Translations under genes and position numbers: made by a program
The notes under the pieces: model-generated
Databases searched by the model: none
What the model saw: the letters and a program-made list of their open reading frames with translations, nothing else
What the model was told of the DNA's origin: nothing
DNA from: Pannonibacter indicus
GTDB lineage: Bacteria > Pseudomonadota > Alphaproteobacteria > Rhizobiales > Stappiaceae
Direction: 5' to 3'
Length of the DNA: 48,844 nucleotides
Assembly (NCBI RefSeq): GCF_001418225.1
Contig: NZ_LIPT01000019.1
Coordinates: forward strand, 1-48,844
Shown: positions 12,753 to 34,110 of the stretch, one piece after another
Numbering within the stretch: position 1 is the first letter of the stretch
Layout: each line of letters begins with the position of its first letter

Positions 12753-14846
12753 ATGAACCTCGGCCAGTGGAGTGTCAGGAACAAGGTTCTTCTGCCTGTC
12801 TGGATCATGGCAGCTTTCATCGTTCTCGTGGTGACCATCAATCTGGTCATCCTGCGGGGTGAATTGGAGCGCGGCCACGTGGAAAAGGTGCGCGCGCTTG
12901 TCGAGGCCGCCCGCTCCATTACGGAAGAAAGCTACCGGCTGGCGCAGGATGGGACGTTGAGCGAGGATGCTGCCAAGGACAAGGCACGCGATGCCATCCG
13001 GGCGATGATCTTCAATGGCGGTGCGCGCGTCTTCGTCTTTGATGAGACCGGAAACCGGGTGGTCAGCAATACAGTGGCGGAAGAAGGTACCAGCGCCTGG
13101 GGCTCCCGCCACACCCGGGATATGATCCGCAACGGCCTGAACGGGGGCGGCGTCACCTATTACAAGGGCGCAAGAACGCTGGATGGAGTCACCACCCGCG
13201 GCAGGCCTAAGGCCGCGTGGTCTGAGCATTTTGCCCCGTGGGGATGGGTCATTTCCTCTGCGGTCTATCTGGACGACGTGAACACCTCCTTCTGGAACCA
13301 TCTTCTGCGCTTCGCCTTGATTTTCGGGGCGGTTGGAGTGTTCCTGCTGATCTGGGTCAATGCCATCGTCGGCAGTATCACCGGTCCGGTGCTGCGATTG
13401 ACAGCCAATATGAAGCAGCTGGCGGACGGCGACACACATGTGACTGTTGAGGACACCGGACGCGCCGACGAAATCGGCCAGATGGCCGCGGCCATGCGAA
13501 CCTTCGTGTCCTATGAGCAGGAGCGCCACGCGCTGCACGGAAAGCTGCAGGAACTGGCCTTCTCCGACAGTCTGACCGGCCTTGCCAATCGCGCCTCCTT
13601 TCAGGACCGGCTGCAGTGCGAACTGGACCGCGCAGCGGCAGATGGCAGCCATTGTGCCCTGATCGTGGTGGATCTTGACCGGTTCAAGACGATCAACGAC
13701 ACCATGGGCCATGCGGCAGGAGATGCGGTCCTGATCCAGACGGCGCGGCGGATCGAGAGTGCGGTCTGTGCGCGCGCCTTCATCGGACGGCTCGCCGGCG
13801 ATGAGTTCTTCGTGGTTCTGCCTGACCTGCCAGGCGTTGACGAGGCAATGGTTCAGGCAAACCGGCTTGTTGAGGCCATGCGCCAGCCCATGATGGTTGA
13901 GGACGCGGTGCTTCAGGTGTCTGTCAGCACCGGCGTGGCCGCCGGTCCCGGCGACAGTGCCAGTGCTCCGGCGCTGTTCCGCTTTGCCGATCTTGCCCTT
14001 TACGATGCGAAGCAGGCCGGCGGCAATTGCGCGCGCGCTTACAGGACACAGATGGGCGAAACCATCGAGAAGCGGTTCAAGCTTGAGACCATGATGAATG
14101 GCGCGCTCAAGCGCGGTGAGTTCAAAGCTGCCTTTCAATTGAAGATGGATTTGGCCACTGGTTATCCGGCAGGTGCGGAGGCGCTGTGCCGATGGGTTCA
14201 TCCGTGTTTTGGCAACATCAACCCGGCTGAGTTCATTCCGGTGGCTGAGGAAACCGGCCAGATCATTGCTATCGGCAACATGATGCTGCGCGAGGCCTGC
14301 AAGTTCGCAGTTCAGGTCAATCATGCGTCTGCGCGGGCCATGGTCATCGCAGTCAACGTGTCGCCGCGCCAGCTGATGAATGGCGACTTTCTGATCCGGC
14401 TGCGCGACTGCCTTGCCGCCACCGGCTGTCAGCCGGAATGGCTGGAACTGGAGATCACCGAAAGCCTGCTGCTGAGCGAGGGCGGCGGTGTACATGAGAC
14501 GCTGGAGCAGATCGCGGCCATGGGCATCGGCATTGCCATCGATGATTTCGGCACGGGCTATTCCGCACTCAGCTATCTGCACCGCTTCCCGATCACGGCC
14601 CTCAAGATTGACCGCTCCTTCATGAACGGCATTTGCAGTGACCCGCAGCAGGAAATCCTGGTGCGGACCATTCTGGCCATGGCCCATGGTCTTGGCCTGG
14701 AGACCACTGCCGAAGGCATCGAGACCGAGGACGTGGCCCGCAAGCTCGCTTCCATGAACTGCCGCTTCGGTCAGGGCTATCTCTGGCACCGCCCCGCTGG
14801 GGCAGAGGAAACCTCCGGCATCATGTGCGGACTGGCCGTGGCCTGA
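12753..14846 (+). CDS. Membrane c-di-GMP enzyme: cache-HAMP-GGDEF-EAL
   Basis: 697 aa. TM1 lies at about residues 13-35; a periplasmic cache-like domain follows (RVFVFDETGNRVVSN, HFAPWGWVISSAVYLDDV), then TM2 at about 186-208, HAMP to about 262, GGDEF from about 268 and EAL from about 445 to the end. The GGDEF site reads AGDEF near 348, a variant that can still be active. EAL-domain catalytic positions are present: EAL near 475, N in VNVSPRQL, E in LEITES, DD in IDDFGTGYS, K in ALKIDRSF, E in AEGIET. It probably both makes and degrades c-di-GMP, or one domain regulates the other, in response to a periplasmic signal. It is transcribed alone from an AT-rich upstream region and converges with the P1 peptidase. 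Confidence 0.93.
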   Translation: MNLGQWSVRNKVLLPVWIMAAFIVLVVTINLVILRGELERGHVEKVRALVEAARSITEESYRLAQDGTLSEDAAKDKARDAIRAMIFNGGARVFVFDETGNRVVSNTVAEEGTSAWGSRHTRDMIRNGLNGGGVTYYKGARTLDGVTTRGRPKAAWSEHFAPWGWVISSAVYLDDVNTSFWNHLLRFALIFGAVGVFLLIWVNAIVGSITGPVLRLTANMKQLADGDTHVTVEDTGRADEIGQMAAAMRTFVSYEQERHALHGKLQELAFSDSLTGLANRASFQDRLQCELDRAAADGSHCALIVVDLDRFKTINDTMGHAAGDAVLIQTARRIESAVCARAFIGRLAGDEFFVVLPDLPGVDEAMVQANRLVEAMRQPMMVEDAVLQVSVSTGVAAGPGDSASAPALFRFADLALYDAKQAGGNCARAYRTQMGETIEKRFKLETMMNGALKRGEFKAAFQLKMDLATGYPAGAEALCRWVHPCFGNINPAEFIPVAEETGQIIAIGNMMLREACKFAVQVNHASARAMVIAVNVSPRQLMNGDFLIRLRDCLAATGCQPEWLELEITESLLLSEGGGVHETLEQIAAMGIGIAIDDFGTGYSALSYLHRFPITALKIDRSFMNGICSDPQQEILVRTILAMAHGLGLETTAEGIETEDVARKLASMNCRFGQGYLWHRPAGAEETSGIMCGLAVA

Positions 14847-21217: not shown

Positions 21218-21550
21218 TTACTTGCACATTGACCCGCCGATCGGCCGGCCGTCCTTGCCGTACTCTAGGAAGGTAGAGAACTTCGTTCCGCCGGAAGCAA
21301 AGTCCAAGAGCTCATCCGGCAGCTCGTCCTGCGCAATGCTGCGCGGCAGAACCAGCACGGCTTCGCCCGGAGCTTCTTCCACAACGGTGATTTTCATGGC
21401 CGGAATAGGGTCGGTGCCAAGCAGGGCCTTGAGAGCCGCGTGCGGATTGGCCTTCAGGTCCTCGCGAAACGCGCTGTCAGCGATAGCCTTTTCAATCAGC
21501 GCCTTTTCAATGTGCTGGCGCGCCTGTGCAATCGGATCATGGGCCGGCAT
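21218..21550 (-). CDS. NHLP-family RiPP precursor peptide, downstream copy
   Basis: 110 aa. The leader (about residues 1-88) resembles the nitrile hydratase alpha-subunit-like leader: RQHIEKALIEKAIADSAFRE, LKANPHAALKALLG, ITVVEEAPGEAVLVLPRS, DELPDELLDFASGG. The double-Gly after LLDFAS is the expected cleavage point. The remaining 22-residue core is Thr, Lys, FSTFLEYGKDGRPIGGSMCK: aromatic-rich at its N-terminal side, Gly-rich then a single Cys one residue before the end. Known: NHLP leaders guide ribosomal natural-product modification by LanM, YcaO/cyclodehydratase or radical SAM enzymes, and export by a C39-peptidase ABC transporter. None lies in this window. It follows the upstream copy by 72 nt, with a hairpin between. 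Confidence 0.82.
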   Translation of the reverse strand: MPAHDPIAQARQHIEKALIEKAIADSAFREDLKANPHAALKALLGTDPIPAMKITVVEEAPGEAVLVLPRSIAQDELPDELLDFASGGTKFSTFLEYGKDGRPIGGSMCK

Positions 21551-21582
21551 GTAAATGGGTCCCCGGAATGCTCTCTGAAAAG

Positions 21583-21607
21583 GGAGGGCGTGACCATCAC
21601 ACCCTCC
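21583..21607 (-). terminator. Attenuator/terminator between the two precursor genes
   Basis: Read on the minus strand: GGAGGGTGTGA (21607-21597), TGG loop, TCACGCCCTCC (21593-21583), then CTTTTC. The arms pair fully if one G-U is allowed (11 pairs). It begins 16 nt after the stop of the upstream precursor gene. Partial termination here would make more of the upstream peptide than the downstream one. Confidence 0.75.
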
Positions 21608-21622
21608 GGTGACTGTCAGCAG

Positions 21623-21955
21623 TTACTTCTTCTTGCAGCCGCCGCCATCCGGATACGGCGGGCCGTAGAGAATGAAGGACGAGAAGCTGGTGCCACCGGA
21701 GGCAAAGTCCAGCAGATCGTCCGGCAATTCGTCCTGCCCGATGGAGCGCGGCAGCACGAGGACGACTTCCCCCGGGGCCTCTTCAACCACTGTGATCTTG
21801 TAGGAGGGGATCGGGTCATTGCCGATCAGCTCCTTGATGGCCGCATGCGGGTTGCTCTTCAGCAGCTCGCGGAAGGCGGCATCGGACGAGGCCCTCAGGA
21901 TGAGGTGCTTCTCGATGTGCTGGCGGGCCTGGGTAAGCGGATCAAGTTCAGACAT
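21623..21955 (-). CDS. NHLP-family RiPP precursor peptide, upstream copy
   Basis: 110 aa, the same length as the downstream copy. ATG with GGGAG about 10 nt upstream. The leader is strongly similar to the other copy (RQHIEKHLILRASSDAAFRE, LKSNPHAAIKELIG, ITVVEEAPGEVVLVLPRS, DELPDDLLDFASGG), and the ITVVEEAPGE and LVLPRS blocks are nearly identical. After the GG the 22-residue core begins TSFSSFILYG, continues PPYPDGGGC and ends in three Lys. Core and leader thus diverge at different rates, as in true leader/core precursors. It is the first of the pair; its promoter must lie in 21956-22099 or upstream of the methyltransferase gene. No modifying enzyme is seen within 20 kb on either side. Confidence 0.82.
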   Translation of the reverse strand: MSELDPLTQARQHIEKHLILRASSDAAFRELLKSNPHAAIKELIGNDPIPSYKITVVEEAPGEVVLVLPRSIGQDELPDDLLDFASGGTSFSSFILYGPPYPDGGGCKKK

Positions 21956-31533: not shown

Positions 31534-33804
31534 TTACCCAGCGAGGCGGTTGGCCGGACGCAGGATCACCGGGTCAAGGCTGATGCTCTGGATGAGGGCG
31601 GAGACGGTTTGGACCGGGGCAGGGCGGCCCATGTAATAGCCCTGCATGCGCTCGCAGCCGGCGCTGGTGAGGAACTGCACCTGCGGTGCGGTTTCGATGC
31701 CCTCGGCCACCACGGTCATGCCGAGGGCCGCGCCAAGATCGATGATGGTGCGCACGATCGCCTGCGCCTGCGGGCTCTCATCCACCGGGGAGATGAAGTC
31801 CCGGTCGATCTTCAGAATGTCGAAGGGGAAGCGGCGCAGGTAGCTGAGGCTGGAATAGCCCGAGCCGAAGTCATCCAGCGCGATCTTGAGGCCCAGTTCC
31901 TTCAGCCGCTTCATGGCGGTCAGCACGGTGTCATCCTTGCCGGCGAAGACGGACTCCGTCACCTCGATTTCAAGGCGCGAGGGCGCAACGTCAAAGGCGG
32001 AGAGGGTCTCGATCACCTGATCGATGAAGCGCGGATGGCGGAACTGGGTCGGTGAAATATTGACCGAAACGGTGATGTCCGGCCAGTTATGGGCATCCCG
32101 GCAGGCACGGCGCAGCACCCAGAGCCCCAGATCGTTGATCAGGCCCGTTTCTTCGGCAATGGGCACGAAGATGGACGGGCTGATCGGCCCATGGTCCGGC
32201 TGGGTCCACCGCACCAGCGTTTCCACAGCGGCAACGCGGCCGGTGCGGCTGTCCAGCTGCGGCTGATAGGCGACCGAAAGCAGGTCATTGTCGATGGCAC
32301 GGCGCAGGTCACGGGCGATCTTGTCGCGGGTGTGGACATGCTCTTCCATGGCCGGATCGAAGAAGGACCAGCGGCGGCGGCCATTGGCCTTGGCATCGTA
32401 GAGTGCGATGTCCGCCTTGCGCAGCAGCTCCCCTGCGGTGGTGCCGTCCTGCGGAGCAATGGCTGCTCCCATGGACAGGCTGACATACAACTCGTTTCCG
32501 GCAACCCGCAGCGGGCGGCTCAGTTCGTCCTGAATATGGCTCAGCTGATATTCGATGAGGGAGCGCGAGCGGCAGCCCGACAGGATCATGGCGAATTCAT
32601 CGCCTGAAATACGCGCCAGCATGCCCGTGGGCGGAACGATGGTGCGCAGGCGCGCTGTCACGGCCTTGATGACTTCATCGCCGGCCGCATGGCCCAGCGT
32701 GTCGTTGATGTCCTTGAAGTGATCGAGATCGATGTAGATGACAGCCGTCAGATCTTTACCATTGCGCTCGTCGTGAGCATTTGCGAGCGCTTCCACCAGC
32801 ATACGGTTGAAATAGTCGCGGTTCGGCAAGCCGGACAGGCTGTCATGTTGGGCGGCGTAGATGGCGCGGGCTTCGCTGTTGGCGAGCTTGCGTGTCGACT
32901 GCCTTGCATAGTTCAGCAGAAGGGCGGTCATGGCGGCAATGGCCAGGACGAGCAGGACCAGCACCGGCAGAATGCGCATGAGCATCAGAGATCCCGGGCG
33001 GGACGAGCGCCAGCTGAGGCGCGTTACCGGCTCGCCCGAAGGGTCCAGCACAAGGATGGAGGCGAGGTCTCTTCTGCCCTTTTGAACAGGTCCTGCTTCA
33101 ATCCCGGAAATCCCCGCCATTCCGGAGAGGCGGCCGAGCACCGAAGGGGTCATGGCGACGAAACTCAGAAGCACGGCTGGCGCATCCCGATCTGCGCCGA
33201 TGTTGTGGGTTTGCGGAGAGATTGCGGTTACGCTGAAGTAATGCGGGCGCCCGCCTGCCAGGACGACGCCATTCTCGAAGATGGTGCGGTGATTGGCCCG
33301 GTAGTCCGGCTGAAAGCGATAGGCGCCGGAGGGTGTCTTTTTGAAGCTTGCGATGTAGCTGGCCCTGACCCGGGCTACCGGTCCGCTAAGGGCGTTGAGC
33401 AGTGTCTCGTCAAGCCAGTTGGCTGCACCATCGTCATCATAGGCGACGATGGCCTCCAGATCGCGGTTCAGGATCACCGTCTTCGTATGGCCATGCACGT
33501 TCGCAAGTGAAATGGCGATCTGGTGCAGCAGCCACGCGGCTTCTTCCGAGCCGCGCTTTGCCCGGAAATAGGCATCATCCCAGACCGCGGCAGCTTCCTG
33601 CTGGCTGCTCAGCTGATCCAGTTGCATCGTCAGAGACCCCTCGATCAGACTGCGCTCGCTGTCTTCTGCGGCAGTATCGGTCAGGGCCGAAGACCAGATG
33701 AGAATTGCGAAAACAAACAGGACCGCAAGCAGCATGACGCCAATCACCGGAATGATGATTGTGTTTGCTATCTTCCCTCCCTGCGTCCCTATGCCTTGAT
33801 CCAT
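31534..33804 (-). CDS. Membrane c-di-GMP enzyme: CHASE4-like sensor-GGDEF-EAL
   Basis: 756 aa from the ATG at 33804 (GGGAG upstream). TM1 at about 13-35; periplasmic CHASE4-like domain (QQEAAAVWDDAYF, NRDLEAIVAYDDDG, GRPHYFSVTAIS); TM2 near 265-290; GGDEF with ARISGDEFAMIL near 395; EAL domain from about 490. In the EAL domain the first motif reads ETL rather than EAL, keeping the metal-binding Glu. The others are present: VNISPTQF, LEIEVTES, LDDFGSGYSSL, ILKIDRDF, AEGIET. Both domains look competent. It is the second GGDEF/EAL protein in the window; its sensor differs from the one at 12753. Confidence 0.92.
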   Translation of the reverse strand: MDQGIGTQGGKIANTIIIPVIGVMLLAVLFVFAILIWSSALTDTAAEDSERSLIEGSLTMQLDQLSSQQEAAAVWDDAYFRAKRGSEEAAWLLHQIAISLANVHGHTKTVILNRDLEAIVAYDDDGAANWLDETLLNALSGPVARVRASYIASFKKTPSGAYRFQPDYRANHRTIFENGVVLAGGRPHYFSVTAISPQTHNIGADRDAPAVLLSFVAMTPSVLGRLSGMAGISGIEAGPVQKGRRDLASILVLDPSGEPVTRLSWRSSRPGSLMLMRILPVLVLLVLAIAAMTALLLNYARQSTRKLANSEARAIYAAQHDSLSGLPNRDYFNRMLVEALANAHDERNGKDLTAVIYIDLDHFKDINDTLGHAAGDEVIKAVTARLRTIVPPTGMLARISGDEFAMILSGCRSRSLIEYQLSHIQDELSRPLRVAGNELYVSLSMGAAIAPQDGTTAGELLRKADIALYDAKANGRRRWSFFDPAMEEHVHTRDKIARDLRRAIDNDLLSVAYQPQLDSRTGRVAAVETLVRWTQPDHGPISPSIFVPIAEETGLINDLGLWVLRRACRDAHNWPDITVSVNISPTQFRHPRFIDQVIETLSAFDVAPSRLEIEVTESVFAGKDDTVLTAMKRLKELGLKIALDDFGSGYSSLSYLRRFPFDILKIDRDFISPVDESPQAQAIVRTIIDLGAALGMTVVAEGIETAPQVQFLTSAGCERMQGYYMGRPAPVQTVSALIQSISLDPVILRPANRLAG

Positions 33805-34110
33805 GCGATCTGCTCCCGGCTTCTGACAATTAATCTCCGGGAAAAGACTTAAGGAATGGCGGATGGATTTGGTTAAGACCAGTTCATGAATAGACAAATT
33901 GTAATGCTGCATTGAAGAATGGGCCTGTTGGAGAGGTCCCCGGCTGTTTTGCTATGGCGGCAGGAAGCGATGATTGCGTGACGTCATTTTCTGGCGTTTA
34001 AGCATTTGAAGATTCAAACAATCTCAGGCACGGCCGGGCCGCCGCAGATGCATTCGGGATCTTTTCCTGGAAGCTGGAACTGGTATTGTGCCGCTGAAAC
34101 GGGAGGCCGC

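Follow-up and report, generated by a model that had tools for sequence, protein, structure and literature searches.

Which enzymes, if any, mature a ribosomal peptide whose precursor gene stands alone? The question is raised by two neighbouring genes on a 48,844-nucleotide stretch of DNA (the window), which is the whole of contig C19 in a 36-contig, 4.17 Mb Pannonibacter genome. Both lie on the minus strand and encode 110 amino acids, w1 at 21623-21955 and w2 at 21218-21550, as the original prediction had described. Its division of each protein into a common leader ending in FASGG and a different 22-residue core was also borne out, with leaders of 88 residues. The w1 leader (residues 1-88; 21692-21955, minus strand) ends DELPDDLLDFASGG and precedes the core TSFSSFILYGPPYPDGGGCKKK (residues 89-110; 21626-21691, minus strand), the N-terminal half of which is common to other genera, while its tail is genus-specific and holds one cysteine. 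The w2 leader (residues 1-88; 21287-21550, minus strand) ends DELPDELLDFASGG, and the w2 core (residues 89-110; 21221-21286, minus strand) is TKFSTFLEYGKDGRPIGGSMCK, again with one cysteine. Three lysines are present in each core. An HMM search with the NHLP leader model TIGR03793 agreed with the predicted family, w2 scoring 52.7 bits (E 2.9e-14), above the cut-off of 50.9, and w1 46.9 bits (E 1.8e-12), below it, over residues 11-88; a w1-type relative in Shinella carries the public annotation 'NHLP leader RiPP precursor'. Judged by these sequence features, w1 and w2 are NHLP-type RiPP precursors. An AlphaFold2 model of the precursor was poor (mean pLDDT 50.8).

The pair had been described as lacking any maturation enzyme or C39 exporter within 20 kb, which left two options, enzymes acting in trans or peptides that work unmodified. 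In genome-wide profile searches, none of the matches to C39, YcaO, LanC-like, radical SAM or GNAT profiles fell on C19, and the local statement is therefore right. It does not extend to the genome, where contig C20 holds a pair of GNAT genes and a C39-containing NHLM exporter together with a precursor of the same family.

A GNAT and export cassette on a second contig

Both predicted precursors are on the window contig, and the genome holds ten of NHLP type in total: two on C19, four in a row on C4, one on C20 and three on C17. The w1 leader is 67% identical to that of the C20 precursor, which matches TIGR03793 at 63.9 bits, and 58-71% identical to those of the four C4 precursors. The three C17 precursors are consecutive (L011, 9339-10808) and have long cores of 42-56 aa without cysteine, one of which is rich in Gly, Ser and Asn and ends WW.

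The order of genes on C20 is hybrid histidine kinase, response regulator, GNATa, GNATb, then (divergent) the precursor, one further gene, an outer-membrane factor of NodT type, HlyD, ABC1 and ABC2. All three models that together identify an NHLM export system find their counterpart here, the third falling marginally short: HlyD matched TIGR03794 at 304.4 bits (cut-off 156.2), ABC1 matched TIGR03796 at 972 bits (cut-off 853.3) and ABC2 scored 707.4 bits against TIGR03797, 2 bits below the cut-off of 709.4. ABC1 contains a C39 peptidase domain (131 bits), and it was a genome-wide search for C39-peptidase ABC genes, as the original prediction had proposed, that was answered by this exporter. The sole other C39 match in the genome belongs to a weaker NHLM-like ABC pair on C23, which by sequence could be an alternative exporter of w1 and w2. 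This diverged pair (L026, 1806-7555) scored 213 and 180 bits, far below the cut-offs, and is adjoined by its own GNAT and by two small Gly-Gly ORFs with the leader SELDLVAGG, for which no NCBIfam model matched.

We scanned a genome collection of 84,980 species with a profile of seven paralogues and two leader patterns, the core not being used, and obtained 23 loci. Three of these (L056-L058) are orthologues of the window site and the other 20 were counted for GNAT neighbours. In 13 of the 20 (L059, L060, L062-L066, L068, L069, L071-L073 and L077) the precursor has a GNAT homologue as its neighbour; in the other seven there is none. Three of the seven (L067, L070 and L074) have a w1-type precursor, and GNATs are found elsewhere in each of their host genomes; L061 and L075 are from P. 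phragmitetus, of which genome G002 holds four GNATs; L076 and L062 come from one MAG, and L078 is a 4 kb contig. At E<=1e-15, all 12 host genomes searched contain at least one GNAT. In the ten loci measured the two genes are divergent, with 147-409 bp between the GNAT start and the first match to, or start of, a precursor; in L065, L068 and L069 they are co-directional. The order GNATa-GNATb followed by precursor is kept in all six GNAT-pair loci examined, a count that leaves out the seventh known pair (G001). By annotation, a Shinella plasmid carries in one stretch a GNAT, an NHLP precursor, a radical SAM gene, a Nif11 precursor, a second GNAT and an NHLM exporter; an Ensifer plasmid carries a Nif11 precursor together with GNATs and genes of an NHLP exporter; and a Rhizobium plasmid with a more distant precursor (38%) is annotated without any of these genes within 10 kb. 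An orphan NHLP precursor on a Rhizobium plasmid (L127, 7486-10321) lies near a methyl-accepting chemotaxis protein.

Co-occurrence was assessed in 61 genomes, comprising the genome itself, four of the same genus, 32 of the same family and 24 of the same order. The precursor search matched six of them, the five genus members and, weakly, G034. Among up to 36 candidates scored per genome, a GNAT at E<=1e-10 was present in all five genus members and in none of the 56 others, and the TIGR03796 cut-off was exceeded in all five genus members and one of the 56 (G050).

GNATb is predicted to adopt a tandem GNAT fold: its model is of good confidence (mean pLDDT 90.1, pTM 0.75), and the top PDB matches include the tandem GNATs 2wpw of the clavulanic-acid pathway (TM 0.60-0.64) and VipF (0.50-0.55). 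Among 24 aligned GNATs, 23 carry the N-terminal P-loop motif, the exception being GNATa of this genome, where a histidine replaces glycine. The substitution is seen in GNATa of this genome (L010, 7610-8626) and in that of P. phragmitetus (L066, 6758-7765), whose frame has an early stop with a methionine directly after it, probably a matter of the start site. In a tree of 32 GNATs, which omits six of the homologues from hosts without a GNAT pair, GNATa (six rows) and GNATb (seven rows) form sister clades with a joint group support of 100/97, which fits one duplication.

Since a GNAT lies beside the precursor in most loci outside the window site, selidamide-type acylation in trans is our best reading, and we consider it probable that w1 and w2 are satellite precursors that are GNAT-acylated and exported in trans by the C20 cassette. 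The analysis shows the precursors and the genes for GNATs and exporter, which are associated in other loci and co-occur across genomes, and a predicted GNAT fold; from these we infer that the GNATs act on w1 and w2, which residue receives which acyl group, and that cleavage takes place. The leader would serve as a recognition handle, and a tandem-fold GNAT of C20, most likely GNATb and possibly with GNATa, would acylate a side chain of the core, probably that of lysine. The C39 domain of the NHLM exporter would then cut after Gly-Gly, and the 22-aa peptide would leave through ABC1/ABC2, HlyD and the outer-membrane factor. Several points count against acylation in trans: no GNAT is found in the vicinity of w1 or w2, seven of the 20 loci have no GNAT neighbour, GNATa of this genome departs from the P-loop motif, and the C23 pair could provide export instead. 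Between the two options left by the original prediction, the evidence favours action in trans, and unmodified peptides are less supported.

The closest known systems are the selidamides, the GNAT-acylated RiPPs phaeornamide, kamptornamide and the nostolysamides (PMC9505594, PMC13060382). NpuN acylates Lys1 of nostolysamide precursors with double-Gly leaders, is a tandem GNAT by prediction with a clear P-loop in its N-terminal domain, and belongs to a similarity cluster in which NHLP precursors, and gene clusters with no lanthionine synthetase, are also found (PMC13060382). The likenesses are an NHLP or Nif11 double-Gly leader, a GNAT with the precursor, a peptidase-containing exporter and, for phaeornamide, a host that is also an alphaproteobacterium (PMC9505594, PMC13060382). 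Unlike the selidamides, this Pannonibacter genome has no lanthionine synthetase among the profile matches found, its GNAT is duplicated, its GNAT-pair cores hold one cysteine each, its precursors are scattered over four contigs and half of the w1 core is common between classes. A GNAT pair stands with the precursor on C20, and membership of w1 and w2 in that pathway would be in trans; the likeness of the C20 GNATs to NpuN and PhaN is one of predicted fold class and gene context. The leader model and the terminal Gly-Gly are shared with the NHLP/NHLM families of Haft et al. 2010, and so are the three export models, two of them scoring above cut-off and the third 2 bits short of it. Prochlorosin precursor genes are dispersed. 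In the prochlorosins many precursors are likewise served by one enzyme set, that of ProcM (PMC10783134), but there the leaders are of Nif11 type and the enzyme is a lanthionine synthetase in cyanobacteria, whereas this Pannonibacter genome has NHLP leaders and GNATs, and a LanC-like gene was not found. The arrangement of w1 and w2 appears, by sequence and gene context, to be an unusual layout of NHLP precursors and a variant of the selidamide type in which acylation is presumed. RiPP mining generally seeks the enzyme in the immediate surroundings of the precursor. A cluster-based method could therefore overlook a case like this one, where the precursors are isolated and a different contig encodes enzymes and exporter. 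If the acylation is true, this would be a multi-peptide form of the recent class of GNAT-lipidated RiPPs without a lanthionine synthetase.

Single-cysteine cores and an adjacent sensor kinase

Exactly one cysteine, at varying positions, is present in all 48 distinct DELPD-type cores from the seven GNAT-pair genomes (five Pannonibacter, two Rhizobium), and none in the 11 cores from ten loci in ten genomes without a GNAT pair; because the cores of related genomes are not independent, this is a pattern and not a probability. The hosts classed as without a pair mostly hold GNATs, nine of the ten having two or three homologues, none adjacent as GNATa and GNATb are. The 48 exclude cores in which no GG could be read or which are truncated at the end of a locus. 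When the four complete and distinct rows among those dropped are added, the count becomes 50 of 52, two having one cysteine (L059 486 and L059 7603) and two none (L059 1295 and L047 1048, core VGVSDNL...). Also excluded were the C17 and C23 precursors, whose hinge or leader is of a different type; these include the three cysteine-free cores of C17. Lysine is present in 45 of the 48 GNAT-pair cores and in all 11 cores from genomes without the pair, and is therefore not a universal acceptor in GNAT-pair genomes, three of the 48 lacking it. As a pattern, the one-cysteine rule would link the duplication of the GNAT to a requirement for cysteine, and it makes a sharp chemical prediction; the degenerate P-loop of GNATa in this genome warns against assuming that GNATa acylates the cysteine.

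Genes for a histidine kinase and a response regulator precede GNATa-GNATb in all six GNAT-pair loci examined. At its N-terminus the kinase is hydrophobic, six or seven windows there being membrane-like, and no Pfam sensor domain was matched at E<=0.001; HisKA, HATPase, receiver and Hpt domains follow. Peptide-pheromone systems of the Agr/Com type use polytopic histidine kinases. These systems resemble the GNAT-pair loci in the exported peptide, the double-Gly site and the multi-pass kinase with a response regulator beside the GNAT pair; they differ in that the present hosts are Gram-negative, the kinase is hybrid, each array encodes several peptides, and the system is known here from its gene neighbourhood. 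Sensing of an exported peptide by the adjacent kinase is plausible, and the peptides of GNAT-pair loci might as a whole be an extracellular signal read by this hybrid kinase and response regulator, a view compatible with acylation and export in trans that we advance tentatively, as unlikely. The constant position of the two genes, a multi-window N-terminus of this kind and the sharing of one core across classes all speak for it. In four loci residues 1-230 of the kinase are also better conserved than the whole protein (50-63% against 44-52% identity), but in a fifth, L066, the N-terminus is the less conserved (80% against 85%). Moreover, the kinase and regulator found no match in ten w1-type loci of other genera, and the great diversity of cores within arrays is more easily reconciled with bacteriocins or a peptide library than with a single signal. 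A bacteriocin or surface-active role for the peptides is possible.

Downstream of the arrays in L059 (9636-15881), L060 (11915-18269) and L063 (11797-18154) there are homologues of three further proteins, one with CheW repeats, one a receiver-cyclase and one a CheA-like kinase, with domains read in L063; the cyclase protein combines a receiver with a guanylate-cyclase-like domain.

A more speculative proposal, which we think improbable as a whole, would unite these features: GNAT-pair loci would form a Gram-negative lipopeptide signalling or peptide-library system, laid out in a new way as arrays and satellites of NHLP precursors, in which a single cysteine became fixed with the GNAT duplication, each mature peptide thereby offering two distinct sites of modification, one on an acylated side chain and the other cysteine-based, the products being read by the adjacent multi-pass hybrid kinase and the w1 segment SFSAFILYGPPYP being the conserved member common across classes.

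A core half common to distant genera

The core opening x[SG]FS[AS]F[IV]L[YF] is found in 13 of the 23 loci (L056-L058, L064, L065 and L067-L074), from Pannonibacter, Magnetospirillum, Pleomorphomonas, Azospirillum, Shinella, Novispirillum, Rhizobium, a member of the Rhizobiales and the betaproteobacterium Azonexus. The cores of Novispirillum (TSFSAFILYGPPYPDKKPKKR) and Azonexus (TSFSAFILYGPPYPERKPKK) may be compared with that of w1. For the 93 pairs that span two genera, identity averages 47% in the leader (1-74), 92% at 75-88, 75% in the core (89-101) and 33% in the tail, figures that describe a set selected by core type, with the 75-88 hinge being one of the scan patterns and the second Azospirillum copy left out. 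The original prediction had taken the core for the fast-changing part, and between genera this does not hold for w1, where in the core-type-selected set the core outscores the leader. In Haft et al. 2010, NHLP conservation ends at Gly-Gly and the core is hypervariable (PMC2887384); w1-type conservation, unlike this, continues for about 13 residues into the core. The cores of w2 and of the arrays do vary.

A class-wide search with w1, scoring up to 12 candidates per genome, gave some match in at least 29 of 385 genomes; outside the genome itself the best had E 7.3e-18 and none extended beyond position 93 of 109, so that no shared core was seen in that search. Four core strings had no occurrence in the open-licence literature searched, in which, by title, there was no paper on Pannonibacter RiPPs, the nearest being a selidamide review and a nostolysamide preprint.

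The sharing of the w1 core across classes suggests a job that depends on its sequence. Following acylation and export in trans, the w1 core would act outside the cell on a sequence-specific target, which may be why the part SFSAFILYGPPYP is common across classes. Such near-constancy of half a core between alpha- and betaproteobacteria, alongside a drifting leader, departs from what is usual for NHLP precursors; it points to a fixed target or receptor, and the function could be tested with one synthetic peptide.

A conserved core such as this could also work by sequence alone, and w1 and w2 would then leave the cell unmodified, with the NHLM/C39 system providing export and cleavage in trans and the GNATs acting on the neighbouring precursor only or serving self-protection. 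We judge this unlikely. It accords with the lack of an adjoining GNAT at w1 in all five genus genomes and with the degenerate P-loop of GNATa here, but among w1-type loci outside Pannonibacter a GNAT adjoins in seven of ten (L064, L065, L068, L069, L071, L072 and L073), and the w1 core type is therefore GNAT-linked elsewhere; the leader identity of w1 to the C20 and C4 precursors also speaks against it.

Other enzymes, and the origin of the pair

The enzyme classes originally named as partners, LanM, YcaO and radical SAM, did not prove to be the answer. LanC-like proteins (PF05147) had no match in the whole genome. Radical SAM (PF04055) gave ten rows representing nine genes, of the MoaA, MiaB, MtaB, HemW, HemN, LipA, RlmN, QueE and PA0069 families, with no RiPP-type enzyme among them. 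The single YcaO of the genome is on C14, at 107 bits and below the SagD-family cut-off, and is possibly, from its sequence context, part of a separate RiPP-like locus. That region (L025: 9482-10954, 11188-11460 and 11542-11850) contains the YcaO gene with two small ORFs and a BTAD-type regulator, one of the small ORFs matching TIGR03793 at 26 bits without a Gly-Gly core. The single DUF692/MNIO gene, on C7, matches the BufB bufferin maturase model at 386 bits (cut-off 310) and was set aside as a partner on that identification; with its small secreted-type upstream ORF (L148, 1005-2334) it is a probable bufferin locus.

Modification of w1 and w2 by the C14 YcaO, or by the C7 MNIO acting on the single cysteine, is very unlikely. 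The weak NHLP match beside YcaO and the one cysteine per core would suit it, but YcaO sits with its own small ORFs and not with DELPD-type precursors, it had no tblastn match in the 23 precursor loci, and the MNIO is BufB with a small ORF of its own. That the genes are phage or plasmid cargo was also considered and rejected: there was no match in 50,697 phage records, and five plasmid records matched, none more than 57% identical.

Each of the other four genomes of the genus that were searched has a counterpart of w1, which aligns over residues 1-109 or 1-110 with 86-95% identity, and the leader dN/dS is 0.02-0.19 across the ten orthologue pairs of the five genomes. Within these pairs, pN in the first 14 core codons is higher than in the leader in five and lower in five; within the genus, core and leader of w1 change at similar rates and the core is not more constrained. 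Between w1 and w2, pN is 0.18 in the leader, with a dN/dS of 0.13, against 0.44 in the core. Because of the four counterparts and this leader dN/dS, the pair is more than a chance occurrence; a rate difference between leader and core was found for w1 and w2, and RiPP-type genes are present in the genome, so the outcome that was to refute the original prediction did not arise. That the two genes are inactive relics of a former cluster, as a contig without system genes and the presence of w2 in one genome of five might hint, is the least credible account, given the retention of w1 in all five and the low leader dN/dS.

The tandem arrangement holds for the window genome and not for its four genus relatives, which have a single copy at the site, with w2 mapping to the same stretch as w1. 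The leader tree places w2 beside the w1 orthologues (support 95/75). From the shared site, the contrast between leader and core divergence and this tree, w2 is, on sequence comparison, an old or fast-diverged tandem copy, its leader kept under purifying selection and its core new. Elsewhere in the window are two GGDEF-EAL proteins (12753-14846 and 31534-33912); a Cache and HAMP region is present in one of them and CHASE4 in the other.
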